Below, piece after piece: positions 2,013 to 18,771 of a DNA stretch of 64,000 nucleotides (positions within the stretch are counted from its first letter, which is position 1; each line of letters starts with the position of its first letter). This DNA comes from Nevskia sp. (lineage in GTDB: Bacteria; Pseudomonadota; Gammaproteobacteria; Nevskiales; Nevskiaceae). The notes under the pieces are model-generated. The model saw nothing but the letters and a program-made list of their open reading frames with translations, made no database searches and was not told the origin of the DNA. The position numbers were made by a program, and so were the translations under genes. The stretch is from assembly GCA_021732745.1 (NCBI GenBank), contig JAKFUK010000003.1, positions 310,001 through 374,000 of the forward strand. Direction: 5' to 3'.

Positions 2013-3395
2013 ATGAATGACGCAATTCCTCCCGAAGTCCTGAAATCGACCCTGAGCGGCGCTGCCGCGATGACGCCGCGCGAGATCGTCACCGAACTCG
2101 ATCGCCACATCGTCGGCCAGTCGGCCGCCAAGAAAGCCGTGGCGATCGCGCTGCGCAATCGCTGGCGTCGCCAGCAGACCCCGGAAGCGATCCGCGCGGA
2201 AATCACGCCGAAGAACATCCTGATGATCGGCCCGACCGGCGTCGGCAAGACTGAGATCGCCCGCCGCCTGGCCAAGCTGGCCAACGCGCCGTTCGTCAAG
2301 GTTGAAGCGACCAAGTTCACAGAAGTGGGTTATGTCGGCCGCGATGTCGATTCGATCATCCGCGAGCTCGCCGATGTCGCGGTCAAGCTGACTCGCGATC
2401 AGGCCATCGCCCGCGTCCAGGCCAAGGCCCATGACGCGGCCGAAGAACGGGTGCTCGACGCCCTGCTGCCGCCGCCGAGCAACTTCGGCGAAGCCAGCAC
2501 CCATCGCGAAAACGAGAACGGCGCGGCCCGTCAGGTGTTCCGCAAGAAGCTGCGCGAAGGCAAGCTCGACGACACCGAGATCGAACTGAAAGTCAGCATG
2601 ACCCCGGCCAGCATGCAGATCATGGGGCCGCCGGGCATGGAGGACATGACCAGCCAGTTGCAGAGCATGTTCAAGAACCTGGGCGCCGGCCAGCAGAAGA
2701 CCCGGAAGCTGAAGATTCGCGAAGCGATGAAGCTGCTGATCGAGGAAGAAGGCGGCAAGCTGGTCGACGAGGAAGCGATCAAGGTCGAAGCGCTGAAGAA
2801 CGCCGAGGACAACGGCATCGTCTTCATTGATGAGATCGACAAGGTCTGCAAGCGCGGCGAATACGGCGGCGCCGATGTCTCGCGCGAAGGCGTGCAGCGC
2901 GATCTGCTGCCGCTGGTCGAAGGCTGCACGGTGTCGACCAAGCACGGCGCGATCAAGACCGACCACATCCTGTTCATCGCCAGCGGCGCGTTCCACATGT
3001 CCAAGCCCAGCGACATGATTCCGGAACTGCAGGGCCGCCTGCCGATCCGCGTCGAACTGGAAGCGCTGAAAACCGAGGACTTCGTGCGGATCCTGTCCGA
3101 GCCGACCCATTCGCTGACCGACCAGTACAAAGCCCTGCTGGCGACCGAAGGCGTGACCCTGGAATTTGCCGCCGACGGCCTGAACCGCATCGCGGCGATG
3201 GCCTGGCAGGTCAACGAGCGCACCGAGAACATCGGCGCGCGGCGTCTGCACACGGTGCTGGAACGGCTGATGGAAGAAGCCGCGTTCGACGCGCCGGACA
3301 AGGCCGGGACGACGCTGACGGTCGATGCGGCTTACGTCGACGCGAAGCTGGCGAAGCTGGTCGGCGATGAGGATTTGAGCAGGTTCATCCTGTGA
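2013..3395 (+). CDS. hslU: ATP-dependent protease ATPase subunit HslU (ClpY)
   Basis: AAA+ unfoldase that recognises substrates and threads them into HslV. Walker A is [17 protein letters not shown] and Walker B is IVFIDEIDK. The central I domain lies between them, and the C-terminal tail LSRFIL inserts into HslV to activate it. This start gives 460 aa. An internal ATG at 2070 gives [17 protein letters not shown], which matches the N-terminus of most HslU proteins, so the true start could be 2070; neither has a strong Shine-Dalgarno. The stop overlaps the GTG of the next gene (GTGA). Confidence 0.97.
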
Positions 3396-3805
3396 GCGTG
3401 CCGGTTCCAACCGACATCAAGCTGCACCGCAAGTCCCGCGTGCTGGAAGTGGTTTGGGCGGATCGCACCGACTCGCTGCCGCTGGAATACCTGCGGGTGT
3501 TCAGCCCGAGTGCGGAAGTGCGCGGCCACGGCGGCGGCGAGCCGATGCTGGTGGCCGGCAAGCGCGACGTGAACGTGACCGGCGTCGACTCGGTCGGCCG
3601 TTATGCCGTGCGCCTGCGCTTCGACGACGGCCACGACAGCGGCCTTTATTCGTGGCCGACCCTGCGCGAACTGGCCGACAAGCACAGCGAATGGTGGCCG
3701 CGCTACGAGCAGCGCCTGGCCGAGCACGGCATGAGCCGCGACAACGCCACGGTGAAACTGTCGGCACTCGGCGTCGGCAAGTTCAAGCCGGTGCTGCCTT
3801 CGTGA
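3392..3805 (+). CDS. DUF971 family protein
   Basis: A 137-aa protein of the DUF971 family, whose fold corresponds to the N-terminal domain of gamma-butyrobetaine hydroxylase; the molecular function in bacteria is unknown, although the family has been linked to iron-sulfur protein biology. Visible features are the [30 protein letters not shown] block, [20 protein letters not shown] and a terminal WWPRYEQRL. It starts at a GTG inside the hslU stop (GTGA), which implies translational coupling. The hslV-hslU-DUF971 order is conserved in many proteobacteria. Its own stop overlaps the GTG of def in the same way. Confidence 0.88.
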
Positions 3806-4329
3806 TTCGGGACGTCCTGCGCATGGGCGATGCCCGCCTGCTGCGGATTGCCGAACCGGTCACCGCGTTCGGCACGCCGGAACTGCGGGCGCTGATCGAA
3901 GACATGCAGGACACCATGGCCTCGCTGAACGGTGCCGGCCTCGCGGCCCCGCAGATCGGCGTCAATCTGCGGGTGGTGATCTTCGGCGTCGGTGCCAATC
4001 CGCGTTATCCAGACGCGGAAGCGGTGCCGTTCACGATCCTCTGCAACCCGGTGCTGGAAGCGCTCGGCACCGACATGGAAGACGGCTGGGAAGGCTGTCT
4101 GTCGGTGCCCGGCCTGCGCGGGCTGGTGCCGCGCTACGCCCGGCTGCGCTACAGCGGCTTCGATGAAAACGGAGTTCGGATCGAACGCCAAGTCAGCGGC
4201 TTCCACGCCCGCGTGGTCCAACACGAATGCGACCACCTCGACGGCATCCTCTACCCGCGCCGCATTCGCGATCTGACGCAATTCGGTTTCACACGGGAAA
4301 TCTTCGGCGAGGAACGGGCTGACGATTGA
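3802..4329 (+). CDS. def: Peptide deformylase
   Basis: Removes the N-formyl group from the initiator methionine of nascent proteins. All three family motifs are present: [10 protein letters not shown] (motif 1), EGCLSVPG with the metal-binding Cys (motif 2), and QHECDHLDG with the HExxH-type metal site and catalytic Glu replaced in register by HECDH as usual (motif 3). The GTG start at 3802 overlaps the DUF971 stop and gives IRDVLRMGD, a common deformylase N-terminus; ATG at 3823 is the alternative. At 175 aa it is of normal length. It is not next to fmt, so it is probably an additional, stand-alone copy. Confidence 0.93.
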
Positions 4330-4489: not shown

Positions 4490-4945
4490 ATGGCGGGTCT
4501 GTTTTTCGAGCAGTTCACGGTCGGTCGGATTTTCGAGCATGAGATCCGCCGCACGGTCACCGAATCGGACAACGTCTGGTTCTGTGGCGCCACCTACAAC
4601 CCGGCGCAGATCCACATCGACGCCGAGTACTGCAAGAACACCGAATTCGGCCAGCCGCTGGTCAATTCGATCTTCACGCTGGGCCTGGTCATCGGCTTGT
4701 CGATCCAGGACACCACGCTCGGTACCACGGTCGCCAATCTCGGCATGACCGATACCCGCTTCCCGAAGCCGGTGTTTGCCGGCGACACCATCCGCTCACG
4801 CACCACGGTGCTGGAAATCCGCGAATCGAAGTCGCGGCCGAATGCCGGCATCGTCACCTTCCTGCACGAAGGCCTGAACCAGCGCGGCGATCTGATCTGC
4901 ACCACCCAGCGCCAGGCGCTGATGCTACGCAAGCCGGCCGCGTAA
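4490..4945 (+). CDS. MaoC family (hot-dog fold) acyl-CoA hydratase
   Basis: A 151-aa hot-dog fold protein of the MaoC hydratase group. The central stretch TESDNVWFCGATYNPAQIHIDAEY resembles the mesaconyl/methylmalyl-CoA hydratase branch; it has NPxxxH in place of the more usual D-x-N-P-x-H, so the classical catalytic Asp is not obvious. It probably hydrates a 2-enoyl-CoA. The ATG at 4490 has GGAG eight bases upstream; a longer frame starting at 4412 would run through the palindromic operator and is rejected. It is followed after 57 bp by an acyl-CoA dehydrogenase on the same strand and is likely co-transcribed with it. Confidence 0.85.
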   Translation: MAGLFFEQFTVGRIFEHEIRRTVTESDNVWFCGATYNPAQIHIDAEYCKNTEFGQPLVNSIFTLGLVIGLSIQDTTLGTTVANLGMTDTRFPKPVFAGDTIRSRTTVLEIRESKSRPNAGIVTFLHEGLNQRGDLICTTQRQALMLRKPAA

Positions 4946-5002
4946 TCGCGCCGCTCGCGACGCCCGAATTCCTCTTTTCCTTAACTTTCCGGAGTTTTCA
5001 CG

Positions 5003-6169
5003 ATGGATTTCTCGATCAATCCCGATCATCAGGCGATTCGCGATGGCGTCGGAGCCGTGGTCCGTTCGTTCGGCGACGAATACTGGCTGGCCCGTGACGA
5101 CGACGGTGTGTTCCCGTTCGAGTTCCACAAGGCGATGGCCGATGGCGGCTGGCTCGGCCTGACCATGCCGGAGGAGTACGGCGGTTCGGGTCTCGGCGTC
5201 ACCGAAGCGATGATCATGATGCATGAGATCGCCAGCCACGGCGGCGGCATGGCGGCGACCTCGTCGGTGCACATCAACCTGTTCGGGCCGCACCCGATCG
5301 TGGTCTACGGCACGCACGAGCAGAAGTCCCGCTGGGTGCCGCGCCTGATCTCGGGCGAAGACCAGTGCTGCTTCGGCTTCACCGAGCCGGACGCCGGCCT
5401 GAACACCACGGCGATCAAGACCTTCGCGACCAAGGTCGACGGTGGCTATGTGGTGCGCGGCCAGAAGGTCTGGACCTCGACCGCCCAGGTCGCCAACAAG
5501 ATCATGTTGCTGACCCGCACCACCAAGCTCGAGGACGCCAAGAAGCCGACCGACGGCATCACCATCTTCTACACCGACCTCGATCGCTCGAAGATCGCCG
5601 TCACCAAGATTCCGAAGATGGGCCGCAAGGCGGTCGATTCGAACTCGATCTTCATCGACGACCTGTTCATCCCGGATTCCGATCGCATCGGCGAGGAAGG
5701 CAAGGGCTTCGGCTACATCCTGCACAGCTTGAACCCCGAGCGCGTGCTGATCGGGATAGAGGCGATCGGCATCGGCCAGGACGCGCTGCGCCGCGCTGCC
5801 AAGTACGGCCGCGAGCGCGTGGTGTTCGGTCGCCCGATCGGCCAGAACCAGGGCATCCAGCATCCGCTCGCGGAAAAGTGGATGTACTTGGAAGCCGCGC
5901 AGCGCATGGTCGAAAAGGCCGCCTGGCTGTACGACAACCATCTGCCCTGCGGCGCTGAAGCCAATGCCGGCAAATTTCTCGGTGCCCGCGCCGGCTTCGA
6001 TGCCTGCCTCCAGGCAGTGCTGACCTTCGGCGGCATGGGCTACGCGAAGGAGTACCACGTCGAACGTCTGCTCCGTGAAGTGACCGTGACCCGCATTGCG
6101 CCGATCACCGAGCAACTGATCCTGTCGTTCATCGCCGAAAAAGTGCTCGACCAGCCGAAATCGTACTGA
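5003..6169 (+). CDS. Acyl-CoA dehydrogenase (helix-G glutamate type)
   Basis: FAD-dependent alpha,beta-dehydrogenation of an acyl-CoA, passing electrons to ETF. The 388-aa protein has the N-terminal helical domain with MPEEYGGSGLG, the middle domain with CFGFTEPDAGLNTTAIKT, and the C-terminal domain with TFGGMGYAKEYHVERLLREV. The usual C-terminal catalytic Glu (YEG motif of MCAD-like enzymes) is absent; RIAPITEQ is found there. A Glu at about residue 246 in SLNPERVLIG aligns with the catalytic Glu of isovaleryl-CoA and long-chain dehydrogenases (LDLERLVL), so it is probably active with that geometry. A GGAG Shine-Dalgarno precedes the ATG. Confidence 0.92.
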   Translation: MDFSINPDHQAIRDGVGAVVRSFGDEYWLARDDDGVFPFEFHKAMADGGWLGLTMPEEYGGSGLGVTEAMIMMHEIASHGGGMAATSSVHINLFGPHPIVVYGTHEQKSRWVPRLISGEDQCCFGFTEPDAGLNTTAIKTFATKVDGGYVVRGQKVWTSTAQVANKIMLLTRTTKLEDAKKPTDGITIFYTDLDRSKIAVTKIPKMGRKAVDSNSIFIDDLFIPDSDRIGEEGKGFGYILHSLNPERVLIGIEAIGIGQDALRRAAKYGRERVVFGRPIGQNQGIQHPLAEKWMYLEAAQRMVEKAAWLYDNHLPCGAEANAGKFLGARAGFDACLQAVLTFGGMGYAKEYHVERLLREVTVTRIAPITEQLILSFIAEKVLDQPKSY

Positions 6170-14146: not shown

Positions 14147-15157
14147 TCAGGGCAGCACGTCGATCCGCCATGCGTTATCGCTCACGGTTGCCTGGGTGAT
14201 CTCCACCGGCAGGAACTTCTCGATCAGCGCCGCGTTGCTCGAAAAATGCGCGCTCGGCAGAGTCGTCGTGAACGCGCCACCGCCGGCCAGCGCCATCGGC
14301 AGCAAAAGCTGATCGGCCAGATGCTCGTCCACCGCGACCCCGGCATCGAGATAGCGTTGCGCCTGCTGACAGGCTTCAGCGGCAACCTGCTCGGCGCGCA
14401 TGCGGCGCTCCCCGAAACCGGCGAACACCGCGCAGTGTGCTTCGCTTTCGACCGTGATCAGCAGCGCATTGCCCGGCCCGACCGGGCGCTCGACGATCTG
14501 GTGGACCAGCGCGTCGGCTGGCAGCCCGAAATGCCCGCCGACCACGGCCAGCTCGCGCTCGCCAACGGAATCGGCAAGCGCCGAACTGATCGCCAGCGCG
14601 GTAATCGCGCGAATCGCACCGCGCGCCTCAAGATTCAGCGGCCTCAAGACCGACGGCGTCACCGAAACCCGCAAGGCACCGCCACCGGCCGGAAAGAAGC
14701 CGTGGCGCAGCAGCCGAATGTCCAGCTCCGCGCCCATGCGACGCAGCAGCGGCGCGAAGCTCTGGATCAGGAATTCGGCCGTCGGTGCCAGCGGGTTGTG
14801 AGTGCCGCCTTCTATGATCAGCGTCGACGGCCGATCGGCGCGCAACAGCGCCGGTAACACGGTCTGCAGCACCAAGGTCGTCGAACCTGCCGTACCGATC
14901 GCGAAGCGATGATCGCCGCCGCGCACCGCGCCGGGACGAAATTCCAGCTGCTGCGAGCCCGGCGCTGCACCAATCGCCGTCGAGCCGCTGATCGCGACTG
15001 CCGCTTCGACCGCCGTCAGATGCTGGCGCATCAAGCCCGGCTTGGGCCGACCGGCACGAATGCCGCGCATGCGGAACGGCTCGCCGCTGCACAGGCTCAA
15101 AGCGAGCGCACTGCGCAGCAACTGGCCGCCACCGCCGCTGCCATCGAGTTCCAGCAT
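14147..15157 (-). CDS. rtcA: RNA 3'-terminal phosphate cyclase RtcA
   Basis: Converts a 3'-phosphate RNA end to a 2',3'-cyclic phosphate through an RNA-adenylate, preparing ends for ligation by RtcB. The 336-aa protein has the N-terminal LDGSGGGGQLLRSALALS motif, IIEGGTHNPLAPTAEFL, and the C-terminal EHLADQLLLPMAL containing the His that becomes adenylated. The ATG at 15157 begins MLELDGSG, the standard start; an upstream in-frame ATG at 15223 would add an unrelated basic stretch. It is the last gene of the rtcBA operon, 77 bp after rtcB. Confidence 0.95.
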   Translation of the reverse strand: MLELDGSGGGGQLLRSALALSLCSGEPFRMRGIRAGRPKPGLMRQHLTAVEAAVAISGSTAIGAAPGSQQLEFRPGAVRGGDHRFAIGTAGSTTLVLQTVLPALLRADRPSTLIIEGGTHNPLAPTAEFLIQSFAPLLRRMGAELDIRLLRHGFFPAGGGALRVSVTPSVLRPLNLEARGAIRAITALAISSALADSVGERELAVVGGHFGLPADALVHQIVERPVGPGNALLITVESEAHCAVFAGFGERRMRAEQVAAEACQQAQRYLDAGVAVDEHLADQLLLPMALAGGGAFTTTLPSAHFSSNAALIEKFLPVEITQATVSDNAWRIDVLP

Positions 15158-15234: not shown

Positions 15235-16461
15235 TCAGCCTTTCACGCAAACCACCTGGCGCAAGGTGTGGACGATCTCGACCAGATCACGCTGCGCCGC
15301 CATCACCGCGTCGATCGACTTGTAGGCGGCCGGCGATTCATCGACCACTTCCTCGTCCTTGCGGCATTCGACGTGTGCCGTGGCCTTGACGTGATCGTCG
15401 ACGCTGATCAGCTTGCGCGCCTTGGTGCGGCTCATCACCCGGCCGGCGCCGTGACTGCAACTGTGGAAGCTTTCGGCGTTGCCGAGGCCGCGCACGATGA
15501 AACTTTTCGCCCCCATGCTGCCCGGGATGATCCCCAGTTCGCCCTTTCTGGCCCGGACCGCGCCCTTCCGGGTCACCATCAGGTTCTCGCCGTAGTGATG
15601 CTCGCGGCTGACGTAGTTGTGATGGCAGTTGACCGCTTCGGCTGCTGCCTCGAACGGCTTGCCGATCACTCGGCGCGCCGCATCGATGACCGCCTGCATC
15701 ATCAGCGCGCGGTTCATCTTCGCGTAGGCCTGCGCCCATTCGACGGCGAACACGTAGTCGTCGAAGTGCTCGCTGCCTTCGGCGAAATAGGCCAGGTCCT
15801 GATCCGGCAGGTTGATGAACCAGCGGCGCATGTCCTTCTTGGCCAGCTCGATGAACAGCGAGCCGATCGCGTTGCCGATGCCGCGCGAGCCCGAGTGCAG
15901 CATGAACCACACGTGCTGCGCCTCATCCAGACAGACCTCGACGAAGTGGTTGCCGGTGCCGAGGGTGCCGAGATGCGACAGGTTGTTGCTGTTCTTGAGC
16001 TTCGGGTACTTCTCGGTGATGCGCCTGAAATCGTCGATGAGCAGCGACCAGCCGTCGATCGCGGCCGGCGGCGGCGAATCCCAGCTGCCCTTGTCGCGCC
16101 CGCCGCGAACGGCGGTGCGTCCGTGCGGCACCGCTTTCTCGATCTCGGTACGCAGCGCGTTCAGGTTGTCGGGCAGATCGGACGCGGTCAGCGTGGTTCG
16201 CGTGGCAATCATCCCGCAGCCGATGTCGACACCGACCGCCGCCGGCACGATCGCGCCCAGGGTCGGGACCACCGATCCGACGGTCGCACCCTTGCCCACA
16301 TGCACGTCCGGCATAACCGCGATCCAGTGGCGCACGAACGGCAGCTTGGCCAGGTTCGCCAACTGCGCGCGGGCTTCGGGTTCGACGGGGACGCCGTCGG
16401 TCCACAGCTTGATCGGCACGCTGCCGGCTGCGCTCACCACTTCGTGACTGCTGATGCTCAT
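15235..16461 (-). CDS. rtcB: RNA-splicing ligase RtcB
   Basis: GTP- and Mn-dependent ligase that joins 2',3'-cyclic-phosphate or 3'-phosphate ends to 5'-OH ends, repairing cleaved tRNA and rRNA. At 408 aa it has exactly the E. coli length. Metal-binding and catalytic motifs are intact: MPDVHVGKGATVGSVVPT, VGVDIGCGM, HLGTLGTGNHFVEVC, LHSGSRGIGNAIG and the guanylylated His in SHGAGRVMSR; the end is LRQVVCVKG. The ATG at 16461 has GGAG upstream. It is followed by rtcA and preceded by a long structured leader under a sigma-54 promoter. Confidence 0.97.
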   Translation of the reverse strand: MSISSHEVVSAAGSVPIKLWTDGVPVEPEARAQLANLAKLPFVRHWIAVMPDVHVGKGATVGSVVPTLGAIVPAAVGVDIGCGMIATRTTLTASDLPDNLNALRTEIEKAVPHGRTAVRGGRDKGSWDSPPPAAIDGWSLLIDDFRRITEKYPKLKNSNNLSHLGTLGTGNHFVEVCLDEAQHVWFMLHSGSRGIGNAIGSLFIELAKKDMRRWFINLPDQDLAYFAEGSEHFDDYVFAVEWAQAYAKMNRALMMQAVIDAARRVIGKPFEAAAEAVNCHHNYVSREHHYGENLMVTRKGAVRARKGELGIIPGSMGAKSFIVRGLGNAESFHSCSHGAGRVMSRTKARKLISVDDHVKATAHVECRKDEEVVDESPAAYKSIDAVMAAQRDLVEIVHTLRQVVCVKG

Positions 16462-16593
16462 GATGCTTCTCCGTTGGGCGCGCCGCACGTTCTTTGGCGG
16501 CGCGCCGGGCTTGAAATAGGTCCGGTGACAGGAGCTGAGTGGAACGAAAATGGGTCCGGACAGCAGCCGAACGATCACTTGGCCGATGCAGTT

Positions 16594-16674
16594 CCACCGG
16601 CATTCGCCGGGTACAACGTGAAACCGGTTGCGGTGCTATCCGGCACCGCCCCCCGGCGGGCGCTCCCGCCGGGG
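16594..16674 (-). repeat. Structured leader module of the rtc operon, copy B
   Basis: Read on the minus strand: hairpin CCCCGGCGGGAGCGCCCGCC-GGGG, then a perfect hairpin GCGGTGC-CGGATA-GCACCGC, then GTTGTACCCGGCGAATGC-CGGTGG. The outer parts closely match copy A (16770-16852) while the middle differs. It lies 133 bp upstream of rtcB inside the presumed transcript. Confidence 0.6.
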
Positions 16675-16769
16675 TTGCTGAAAAGGTGCGGCGACAATGC
16701 TGGTGACCCGTCCTCGGTCCGGCTTGCGTCTTGCTGCGACCGAGCCTCGAAGGGCGTAACCACGTAACG

Positions 16770-16852
16770 CCACCTGCATTCGCCGCGGTACAACACAACT
16801 CGATCGACCTCCGCCTCGCCTGCCGCTTCCCGGCGAGCCCTCCCGCCGGGAA
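16770..16852 (-). repeat. Structured leader module of the rtc operon, copy A
   Basis: Minus strand: hairpin TTCCCGGCG-GGAGGGCT-CGCCGGGAA, a 32-nt variable stretch, then GTTGTACCGCGGCGAATGCA-GGTGG. Its 83-bp length and both ends match copy B. It begins 15 bp after the stop of the 46-residue ORF. A further hairpin, GGCGTTA...TACGCC, follows directly. Confidence 0.6.
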
Positions 16853-16866
16853 TCCTGCTTGTTGTC

Positions 16867-17007
16867 TCAGTGCAGCGACATCGTCATCACTTCAGGGCGC
16901 TGAAGCTCGGCACCGGCATAACAGGTACCGCGCGGGCAACCTGTGGCTGCTTGCAGCGCCAGTGCGGCCTTGGCATTGCGGCTGCTGAACAATGTGGTGC
17001 TGACCAT
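16867..17007 (-). CDS. Unannotated 46-residue protein, first gene of the rtc sigma-54 transcript
   Basis: A short ORF encoding 46 aa, starting MVSTTLFSSRNAKAALALQA and containing ATGCPRGTCYAGAE, so two Cys in a C-x4-C arrangement. A strong Shine-Dalgarno, GGGAGAGG, lies four bases before the ATG, and the start is only about 20 nt after the predicted sigma-54 transcription start. It is therefore ideally placed as the first cistron of the operon that goes on to rtcB and rtcA. I do not recognise a family. The Cys pair might bind metal or form a disulfide; it could also be a regulatory leader peptide. Whether it is translated is not shown by sequence alone. Confidence 0.6.
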   Translation of the reverse strand: MVSTTLFSSRNAKAALALQAATGCPRGTCYAGAELQRPEVMTMSLH

Positions 17008-17036
17008 GCTGCCTCTCCCGTCGATGCGGGCAATAT

Positions 17037-17052
17037 TGCAACGGCGGTGCCA
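17037..17052 (-). promoter_or_regulatory. Sigma-54 promoter of the rtc operon
   Basis: Minus strand TGGCACCGCCGTTGCA: TGGCAC and TTGCA are exact matches to the -24 and -12 elements with the correct spacing. RtcR, the matching sigma-54 activator, is encoded divergently 124 bp away. The promoter lies 576 bp upstream of rtcB, so the transcript has a long leader holding the 46-residue ORF and the duplicated module. Confidence 0.92.
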
Positions 17053-17175: not shown

Positions 17176-18771
17176 ATGCGCAGGAATGTGGTAATCGGAC
17201 TGATCGGCACGCAGCTTGATGCCGGTCGCGAGCTGAACCGCTGGGAGCGCTGGCGGCCCACGGTGTCGATTGGCATGCAGGAAGACTTCGTCGTCCACCG
17301 TTTCGAGTTGCTGGCCGATACCCGCCGGGCGCGCGATCTGGTCAAAGTGGTCGGCAACGATCTGGCGCAGGTGTCGCCGGAAACCGAGCTGCGGGTGCAC
17401 GATTTCCACGTCGCCGATCCCTGGGATTTCGAAACCATGTATGGCGCGCTGCTCGATTTCTGCGAGCGCCAGACCTTCGATCCGGAAGCCGAGGACTACT
17501 ACGTCCACATCACCACCGGCACCCATGTCGCGCAGATCTGCCTGTACCTGCTGACCGAAAGCCGGCATCTGCCGGGGCGGCTGTTGCAGACCGGGCCGGG
17601 GCGGAACAAGGCCGAAGCGGCGGTCGGCACCCTGTCGGTCATTGACCTCGACCTGTCGAAGTACGACCACATTGCCCAGCGCTTCGCGGCGCGCGCACAG
17701 GACGATCGCAGCTTCCTGAAGAGCGGCATCGCCACACGCAATGCCGCGTTCAACACGATGATCGAGCAGATCGAGACGGTGGCCACCCGCTCGACCGCGC
17801 CGATCCTGCTGATGGGGCCGACCGGCGCCGGCAAGAGCCATCTGGCCCGGCGCATCCACGAGCTAAAGAAGCAGCGGGCGGCGCTTGCGGGTGCTTTTGT
17901 CGAAGTGAACTGCGCCACCTTGCGCGGCGATGGCGCGATGAGCGCGCTGTTCGGCCACCGCAAGGGCGCGTTCACCGGTGCGGTGGCCGATCGCGCCGGG
18001 CTGCTGAAATCGGCCGATCAGGGCCTGCTGTTCCTGGATGAGATCGGCGAACTGGGGGCCGACGAGCAGGCGATGCTGCTGCGGGCGATCGAGGACAAGC
18101 GGTTCTTGCCGGTCGGCAGCGATCGCGAAGTCGAAAGCCGTTTCCAGCTGATTGCCGGCACCAATCGCGACCTTGGTCAGGCGATCCGCAGCGGCCGCTT
18201 TCGCGATGATCTCTACGCCCGCCTGAATCTGTGGACTTTCCAGCTGCCGGGCCTGGCCGAGCGCCGCGAAGATCTGGAGCCGAATCTCGACTACGAACTC
18301 ACCCGCCACGAGCAGGCCCAGGGCCAGCGCGTGCGTTTCAATGTCGAAGCCCGCGAGCGGTACCTGCGCTTCGCGATGTCGGCCGATGCCCGCTGGCAAG
18401 GCAATTTCCGCGATCTCGGGGCCTCGGTGTCGCGAATGGCCACCTTGTCGACGGCCGGACGCATCCAGACTGACGGTGTCGATGCCGAAATCGCGCGCCT
18501 GCGGCGGCTCTGGGGCGACGGTTCGGCAACCGACGACGACACCGCGCTTGCGGAACTGCTGGGTGACGCCATCGCTGACATCGATCTGTTCGATCGCGTG
18601 CAGTTGCGCGAAGTGGTGACCGTCTGCCGGCGCAGCCGCAACCTGTCCGACGCCGGCCGCACGCTGTTTTCGGCCTCGCGGCAGAAGCGCAGCTCGACCA
18701 ACGACTCCGACCGCCTGCGCAAATACTTGGCGCGCTTCGGCCTGAGCTGGGAGCAGATCGCAGCCGCCTGA
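17176..18771 (+). CDS. rtcR: Sigma-54-dependent transcriptional regulator RtcR
   Basis: Activator of the RNA-repair operon. The N-terminal ~180 residues are the RtcR-type CARF-like domain (VVIGLIGTQLDAG and YYVHITTGTHVAQICLYLL), thought to sense RNA with cyclic-phosphate ends. The AAA+ domain has Walker A GPTGAGKSHLARRIHELK, the sigma-54 contact loop GAFTGAV and Walker B LLFLDEIGELG. A C-terminal helix-turn-helix completes the 531 aa. It is divergent from the rtc operon. Relatives are held inactive by the CARF domain until RNA damage occurs, which would make the operon inducible. Confidence 0.96.
   Translation: MRRNVVIGLIGTQLDAGRELNRWERWRPTVSIGMQEDFVVHRFELLADTRRARDLVKVVGNDLAQVSPETELRVHDFHVADPWDFETMYGALLDFCERQTFDPEAEDYYVHITTGTHVAQICLYLLTESRHLPGRLLQTGPGRNKAEAAVGTLSVIDLDLSKYDHIAQRFAARAQDDRSFLKSGIATRNAAFNTMIEQIETVATRSTAPILLMGPTGAGKSHLARRIHELKKQRAALAGAFVEVNCATLRGDGAMSALFGHRKGAFTGAVADRAGLLKSADQGLLFLDEIGELGADEQAMLLRAIEDKRFLPVGSDREVESRFQLIAGTNRDLGQAIRSGRFRDDLYARLNLWTFQLPGLAERREDLEPNLDYELTRHEQAQGQRVRFNVEARERYLRFAMSADARWQGNFRDLGASVSRMATLSTAGRIQTDGVDAEIARLRRLWGDGSATDDDTALAELLGDAIADIDLFDRVQLREVVTVCRRSRNLSDAGRTLFSASRQKRSSTNDSDRLRKYLARFGLSWEQIAAA

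Follow-up and report, generated by a model that had tools for sequence, protein, structure and literature searches.

The question raised by this locus is whether a 46-codon frame at the head of an rtc operon in Nevskia sp. encodes a new small protein of the RNA-repair response, as the original prediction proposed, or whether it has a different origin. The frame lies in a stretch of 64,000 nucleotides (referred to here as the window), on the minus strand between a divergent rtcR gene and the gene pair rtcBA, which are all confirmed by Pfam matches (Table 1). Its predicted position as the first cistron of an operon controlled by RtcR and sigma-54 was confirmed, and the full set of an RtcR-regulated rtcBA operon is present, i.e., an RtcR protein with a CARF-like and an AAA+ domain, a sigma-54 promoter, rtcB and rtcA. 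The near-perfect sigma-54 promoter that had been predicted is TGGCACCGCCGTTGCA, the sole exact match to TGGCAC-N5-TTGCW in the 64-kb window (0.11 matches expected from shuffles). The ribosome-binding site GGGAGAGG and the start codon (ATG at 17007-17005) are indeed spaced as in a real gene, and the frame extends over 46 codons up to a TGA at 16867.

Table 1. Features of the rtc region, given as positions in the window.
Feature	Position	Strand	Evidence
rtcR (CARF-like, sigma-54 activator), divergent	17176..18771	+	PF06956 E 3e-77 and PF00158
sigma-54 (-24/-12) promoter TGGCACCGCCGTTGCA of the rtc operon	17037..17052	-	pattern search; same element before rsr in Hydrocarboniphaga (L034/L037) and Dyella
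ribosome-binding site GGGAGAGG	17012..17019	-	sequence; position matches the GGAG preceding rsr in relatives
46-codon frame, internally deleted relic of rsr (Ro60 orthologue)	16867..17007	-	homology to Rsr and operon position
relic block 1, Rsr start (MVSTTLFS ~ MANxxLFxS)	16984..17007	-	alignment to Rsr
relic block 2, residues 9-36 of the frame ~ Rsr residues 30-57	16900..16983	-	18/28 identical to Hydrocarboniphaga Rsr
relic block 3, last codons and stop ~ Rsr C-terminus (MSLH* ~ MTLQ*)	16867..16899	-	local alignment collinear with the following hairpin
GC hairpin directly 3' of the rsr relic, conserved in relatives	16827..16852	-	alignment to relatives
YrlA-like Y RNA 1, outer stems kept, without tRNA-like module	16687..16787	-	RF02553 23 bits; model R1 38.8 bits, E 3e-9; stem test
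second GC hairpin, between Y RNAs 1 and 2	16651..16674	-	sequence; similar inter-Y hairpins in Dyella L038, L039
YrlA-like Y RNA 2, outer stems kept, without tRNA-like module	16521..16611	-	RF02553 19.4 bits; R1 31.2 bits, E 6e-7; stem test
rtcB (RNA 3'-phosphate/5'-OH ligase)	15235..16461	-	PF01139 E 9e-126
rtcA (RNA 3'-terminal phosphate cyclase)	14147..15157	-	PF01137 E 2e-72

The 46-residue sequence was searched against 100 genomes, the window's own and those of 99 relatives. The best match among the relatives (57% over 35 aa, E 2.4e-6) was found in a genome of the same family, a Hydrocarboniphaga MAG, where it falls within the interval between rtcR and rtcB, inside a gene of 517 codons. 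The gene product, with Pfam matches to vWA_Ro60 (E 2e-20) and TROVE (E 1e-9), is Rsr, the bacterial Ro60, an RNA-binding protein that has Y RNAs as partners. An independent 46-aa gene corresponding to the frame was found in none of the relatives. Weak matches to the 46 aa in other genomes (E 0.005-1) were discarded; RtcB, RtcR and RtcA are all lacking there.

A scan for RtcR over 84,980 species genomes yielded 80 loci, among which five loci of Dyella are, after the Hydrocarboniphaga MAG, the closest rsr-bearing ones to the window. The MAG and the five Dyella carry a full-length rsr (516-517 codons) in the slot of the 46-codon frame, preceded by the same promoter (near-identical in the MAG) and ribosome-binding site as in the window. 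The order is divergent rtcR, then rsr with a GC hairpin behind it, between two and five YrlA Y RNAs, and finally rtcB and rtcA. Hydrocarboniphaga MAG RYN_594 (L034/L037) and Dyella (L038-L042) therefore share with the window the sigma-54 site, the ribosome-binding site, the hairpin behind rsr, the array of Y RNAs and the gene order, but differ from it in having an intact rsr and mostly full YrlA RNAs with T-arm and D-arm-like parts.

The similarity to Rsr extends to both ends of the frame. In block 2, 15-17 of the 28 residues are identical to those of Dyella Rsr, and an alignment of the whole 46 aa to Rsr in which long gaps were allowed scored 79.7, compared with 19.9 +/- 6.8 (maximum 44) for shuffles. 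At the DNA level, the C-terminal tail of the frame on its own is a weak match, scored as high by 98 of 2020 random gene ends (about p 0.05); when the last codons were taken together with the sequence through the hairpin, the best local match in a 9-kb locus of a relative was the end of rsr plus its hairpin, in frame. When gaps could be extended at almost no cost, a global alignment dispersed the 5' blocks and did not place the ends of the deletions; the comparison was based on local and protein alignments. The blocks that match Rsr and the in-frame C-terminal alignment identify the frame as an rsr gene from which about 21 codons close to the start and about 450 from the middle are missing.

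The reverse searches gave the same picture. Intact Rsr retrieved the 46-codon frame as the top match in the genome that contains the window (E 2.6e-4), with a weak vWA match elsewhere as the second (E 0.04), and a profile built from 24 intact Rsr sequences, when run in all six frames against the window and the rtc loci without rsr, matched the 46-codon frame only. Sequence and position thus both attest common descent with rsr: the frame derives from a larger rsr gene by internal deletion and is not a new gene. The idea of an undescribed small member of the RNA-repair response has to be abandoned. Operons of this type normally begin with rsr, and Rsr, which the original prediction considered absent, is represented by a remnant. 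The notion of a real gene holds insofar as the frame is of coding origin and has its own ribosome-binding site, but what is encoded are the fused ends of rsr. The C-x4-C pair (C24, C29) does not constitute a motif, since C24 is the ordinary cysteine of the 'ATGC' of Rsr, and C29 stands where intact Rsr has F or Y.

In GC-rich sequence such as this, frames as short as the present one are plentiful (103 with 30 aa or more in the 10.5 kb around it), and the length of 46 codons by itself means little. Nevertheless, the promoter, the ribosome-binding site, the start and residues 9-36 match the rsr of relatives, which makes the frame more than a product of chance; that it would be unrelated to Rsr is refuted by homology, position and layout, given that it aligns with the Rsr encoded in the corresponding slot of the operon, and has a negligible probability. 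Hardly more credible is an error of the assembly in which an intact rsr has collapsed. The assembly is 91% complete and consists of 6 contigs, which would leave room for such an error, but two separate deletions, many substitutions and two altered copies of the Y RNA point to real change, and rtcR, rtcB and rtcA are intact alongside the relic. Neither TROVE nor vWA_Ro60 nor any other Pfam domain was found in the 46 aa, TROVE (PF05731) has no match anywhere in the genome, and no trace of Rsr beyond the frame was found in it, although a second, unseen rsr is possible at the given completeness.

Y RNAs had also been regarded as absent, yet two YrlA-like RNAs lie between the frame and rtcB. Both match the Rfam family RF02553 (YrlA) from end to end (positions 1-114) via the outer stems, but lack its tRNA-like insert, and their scores are below the curated cut-off of 69 bits (Table 1). 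A covariance model, R1, which was built from 21 copies of relatives and none of the window, found these two leader RNAs and nothing else in the 64-kb window, and its next matches in the whole genome are tRNA genes. Both copies have the outer stems with GAAUGC ... UGUC, the end to which Ro binds in known Y RNAs; in Y RNAs 1 and 2, respectively, 7/7 and 6/7 pairs are formed in the lower stem, and 6/7 and 7/7 in the upper stem. The leader holds two occurrences of this motif and the rest of the window none, and two copies were found in 0 of 20000 shuffles of the leader. Covariation in the stems is strong over 25 aligned copies, including those of the window, in an alignment that was fitted to the model and thus leans towards it. 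The tRNA-like module (the T-arm GGTTCRANYCC and the D-arm-like GTAGCTCAG) is missing in both copies of the window and present in most copies of the relatives. A natural YrlA of 60 nt that consists of the outer stems only occurs beside full-size copies in one Dyella locus (L042, 4039-4098). The sub-threshold Rfam matches Acido-1 and PyrR206 in the leader were treated as chance.

The presence of Y RNAs without an intact rsr sets this locus apart from the others searched. Every other believable YrlA in the 80 RtcR loci shares its locus with rsr, and among 274 gammaproteobacterial genomes YrlA was seen in three others, each of which also has rsr, the remaining matches being tRNA genes; a second case of orphan Y RNAs was found in neither set. 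Matches to tRNA genes are false positives that arise because the YrlA model holds the tRNA-like module, and the YrlA-like matches without rsr (L098, L106, L075, G120, G222, G301 and G354) all turned out to be real tRNA genes. In three of these, rtc loci of Phycisphaerales (L098 3550-3960, L106 1232-1562, L075 3204-3543), four or five real tRNA genes (e.g., His, Leu, Arg, Pro, Met) form a cluster between rtcR and a divergent rtcB, the usual place of the Y RNAs. In Labrys (L044/L045, about 2646-4116, minus strand), rsr is followed by about eight tandem YrlA-like RNAs, and rtcB and rtcA were not found in the flanking sequence examined. Among the titles and abstracts retrieved from the open-access literature, none gives an account of a loss of Rsr with retention of Y RNAs.

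The operon type as such is known. The operon rsr-yrlBA-rtcBA has been described, including the control of RtcR by tRNA fragments with 2',3'-cyclic phosphate ends, and in Deinococcus a machine of Rsr, Y RNA and PNPase is known (PMC7790460). The operon of Salmonella Typhimurium resembles that of the window in the divergent RtcR, the promoter before rsr, the Y RNAs between rsr and rtcB, and the rtcA that follows (PMC7790460), whereas the window has the 46-codon relic of rsr and Y RNAs without the tRNA-like module. It is a known operon type in a new form. GC-rich hairpins of the type CCCGGCGGG...CCGCCGGG, without a U-run, are found after rsr and again between Y RNAs, both in the window and in L038-L042.

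It should be considered whether the relic is still under selection. Both deletions keep the frame, for which the chance is about 1 in 9, and in block 2 the 10 columns with the highest conservation in Rsr are all intact, so that some constraint or a recent deletion is possible. Together with the sigma-54 promoter and the good ribosome-binding site, the intact columns could indicate that a new functional RNA-repair protein has been carved from the N-terminus of Rsr. However, L46P, N47R and F50C break well-conserved, usually fixed sites of Rsr, no independent homologue of the 46 aa was found in the 99 relatives or the 80 rtc loci, and a Pfam domain is lacking. Furthermore, the changes specific to the window are evenly distributed over the codon positions (5,4,5), in contrast to an intact relative (3,0,8); these numbers are small, and the RtcB of the window also looks fast versus the same outgroup, which confounds relative rates. 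A new functional protein is thus improbable.

A less improbable refinement, albeit still a minority view, is that the relic has been kept as a short translated leader, the peptide sequence itself being irrelevant. To the same modest degree it is conceivable that translation ending just before the GC hairpin would shield the Y RNA leader from premature termination or would set the expression of rtcB. The frame is preserved, and its start, its ribosome-binding site and the arrangement of stop and hairpin correspond to those of intact rsr; this is consistent with a translated leader, as is the different fate of another gammaproteobacterial remnant of rsr: in the unrelated G321 (L132, about 4700-5570), an independent pseudogene has decayed by a stop and frame breaks. 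The latter runs into a C-terminal fragment of rtcB, and no YrlA match was found in the region. On the other hand, about one in nine pairs of deletions would stay in frame under neutrality, and in Solimonas marina the sequence from the sigma-54 site to rtcB shows no frame that resembles rsr. Rather doubtful is the more far-reaching version that the shortened translated leader and the two outer-stem Y RNAs have been kept for a role independent of Rsr, e.g., control of rtcB in cis or binding of another protein. An inert or merely translated relic is favoured; most likely the frame is non-functional, and perhaps it is still translated.

The history of the locus can be read from its relatives. In a maximum-likelihood tree of RtcR, the window groups with Solimonas marina and the Hydrocarboniphaga MAG (support 100/99), and the other members of the enclosing group, Dyella and one further gammaproteobacterium, all bear rsr. 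As the RtcR of the window is nested among rsr-bearing operons, loss is the simplest reading. Solimonas marina (L035/L036), which belongs to the same clade, has kept a sigma-54-type site and, though rsr and the Y RNAs are gone, a similar GC hairpin (L036); unlike the window, it has neither a remnant of rsr nor a Y RNA, and thus apparently represents a further stage of the loss. Two closely related RtcR loci of Pseudoduganella (L064 and L067) also differ in this respect, with rsr in P. rivuli and none in P. ginsengisoli, where the gap between rtcR and rtcB is only about 200 nt.

Taken together, with a probability of roughly 85%, the locus is a former operon of rsr, Y RNAs and rtcBA in which only 46 codons of the gutted rsr survive as a relic, followed by reduced Y RNAs. 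The ancestral operon would have consisted of rsr, Y RNAs, rtcB and rtcA under the control of RtcR and sigma-54, like those of the close relatives. The two in-frame losses from rsr, the shorter of which began past the eighth or ninth codon, left a relic that still has the promoter, the ribosome-binding site, the start and the stop of the original gene. Behind it remain at least two Y RNAs, which no longer have their tRNA-like modules. Upon activation of RtcR, the relic would probably be transcribed and may be translated. As it lacks the TROVE ring and the vWA domain, both working domains of Rsr, it should have no Rsr function, and the remaining operon would work through RtcB and RtcA.

The analysis thus removes a false lead, the new small RNA-repair gene, and it reveals that the Rfam cut-off misses reduced YrlA RNAs. 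In its place, a series of losses within one clade becomes visible, with rtcR and rtcBA intact throughout, which leads from the Hydrocarboniphaga MAG (intact rsr and four Y RNAs) via the present genome (gutted rsr and two reduced Y RNAs) to Solimonas marina (neither). This series suggests that RtcBA is able to function when the Ro60/Y RNA arm is missing, and the genome described here offers a test of the role of Y RNAs without Rsr.
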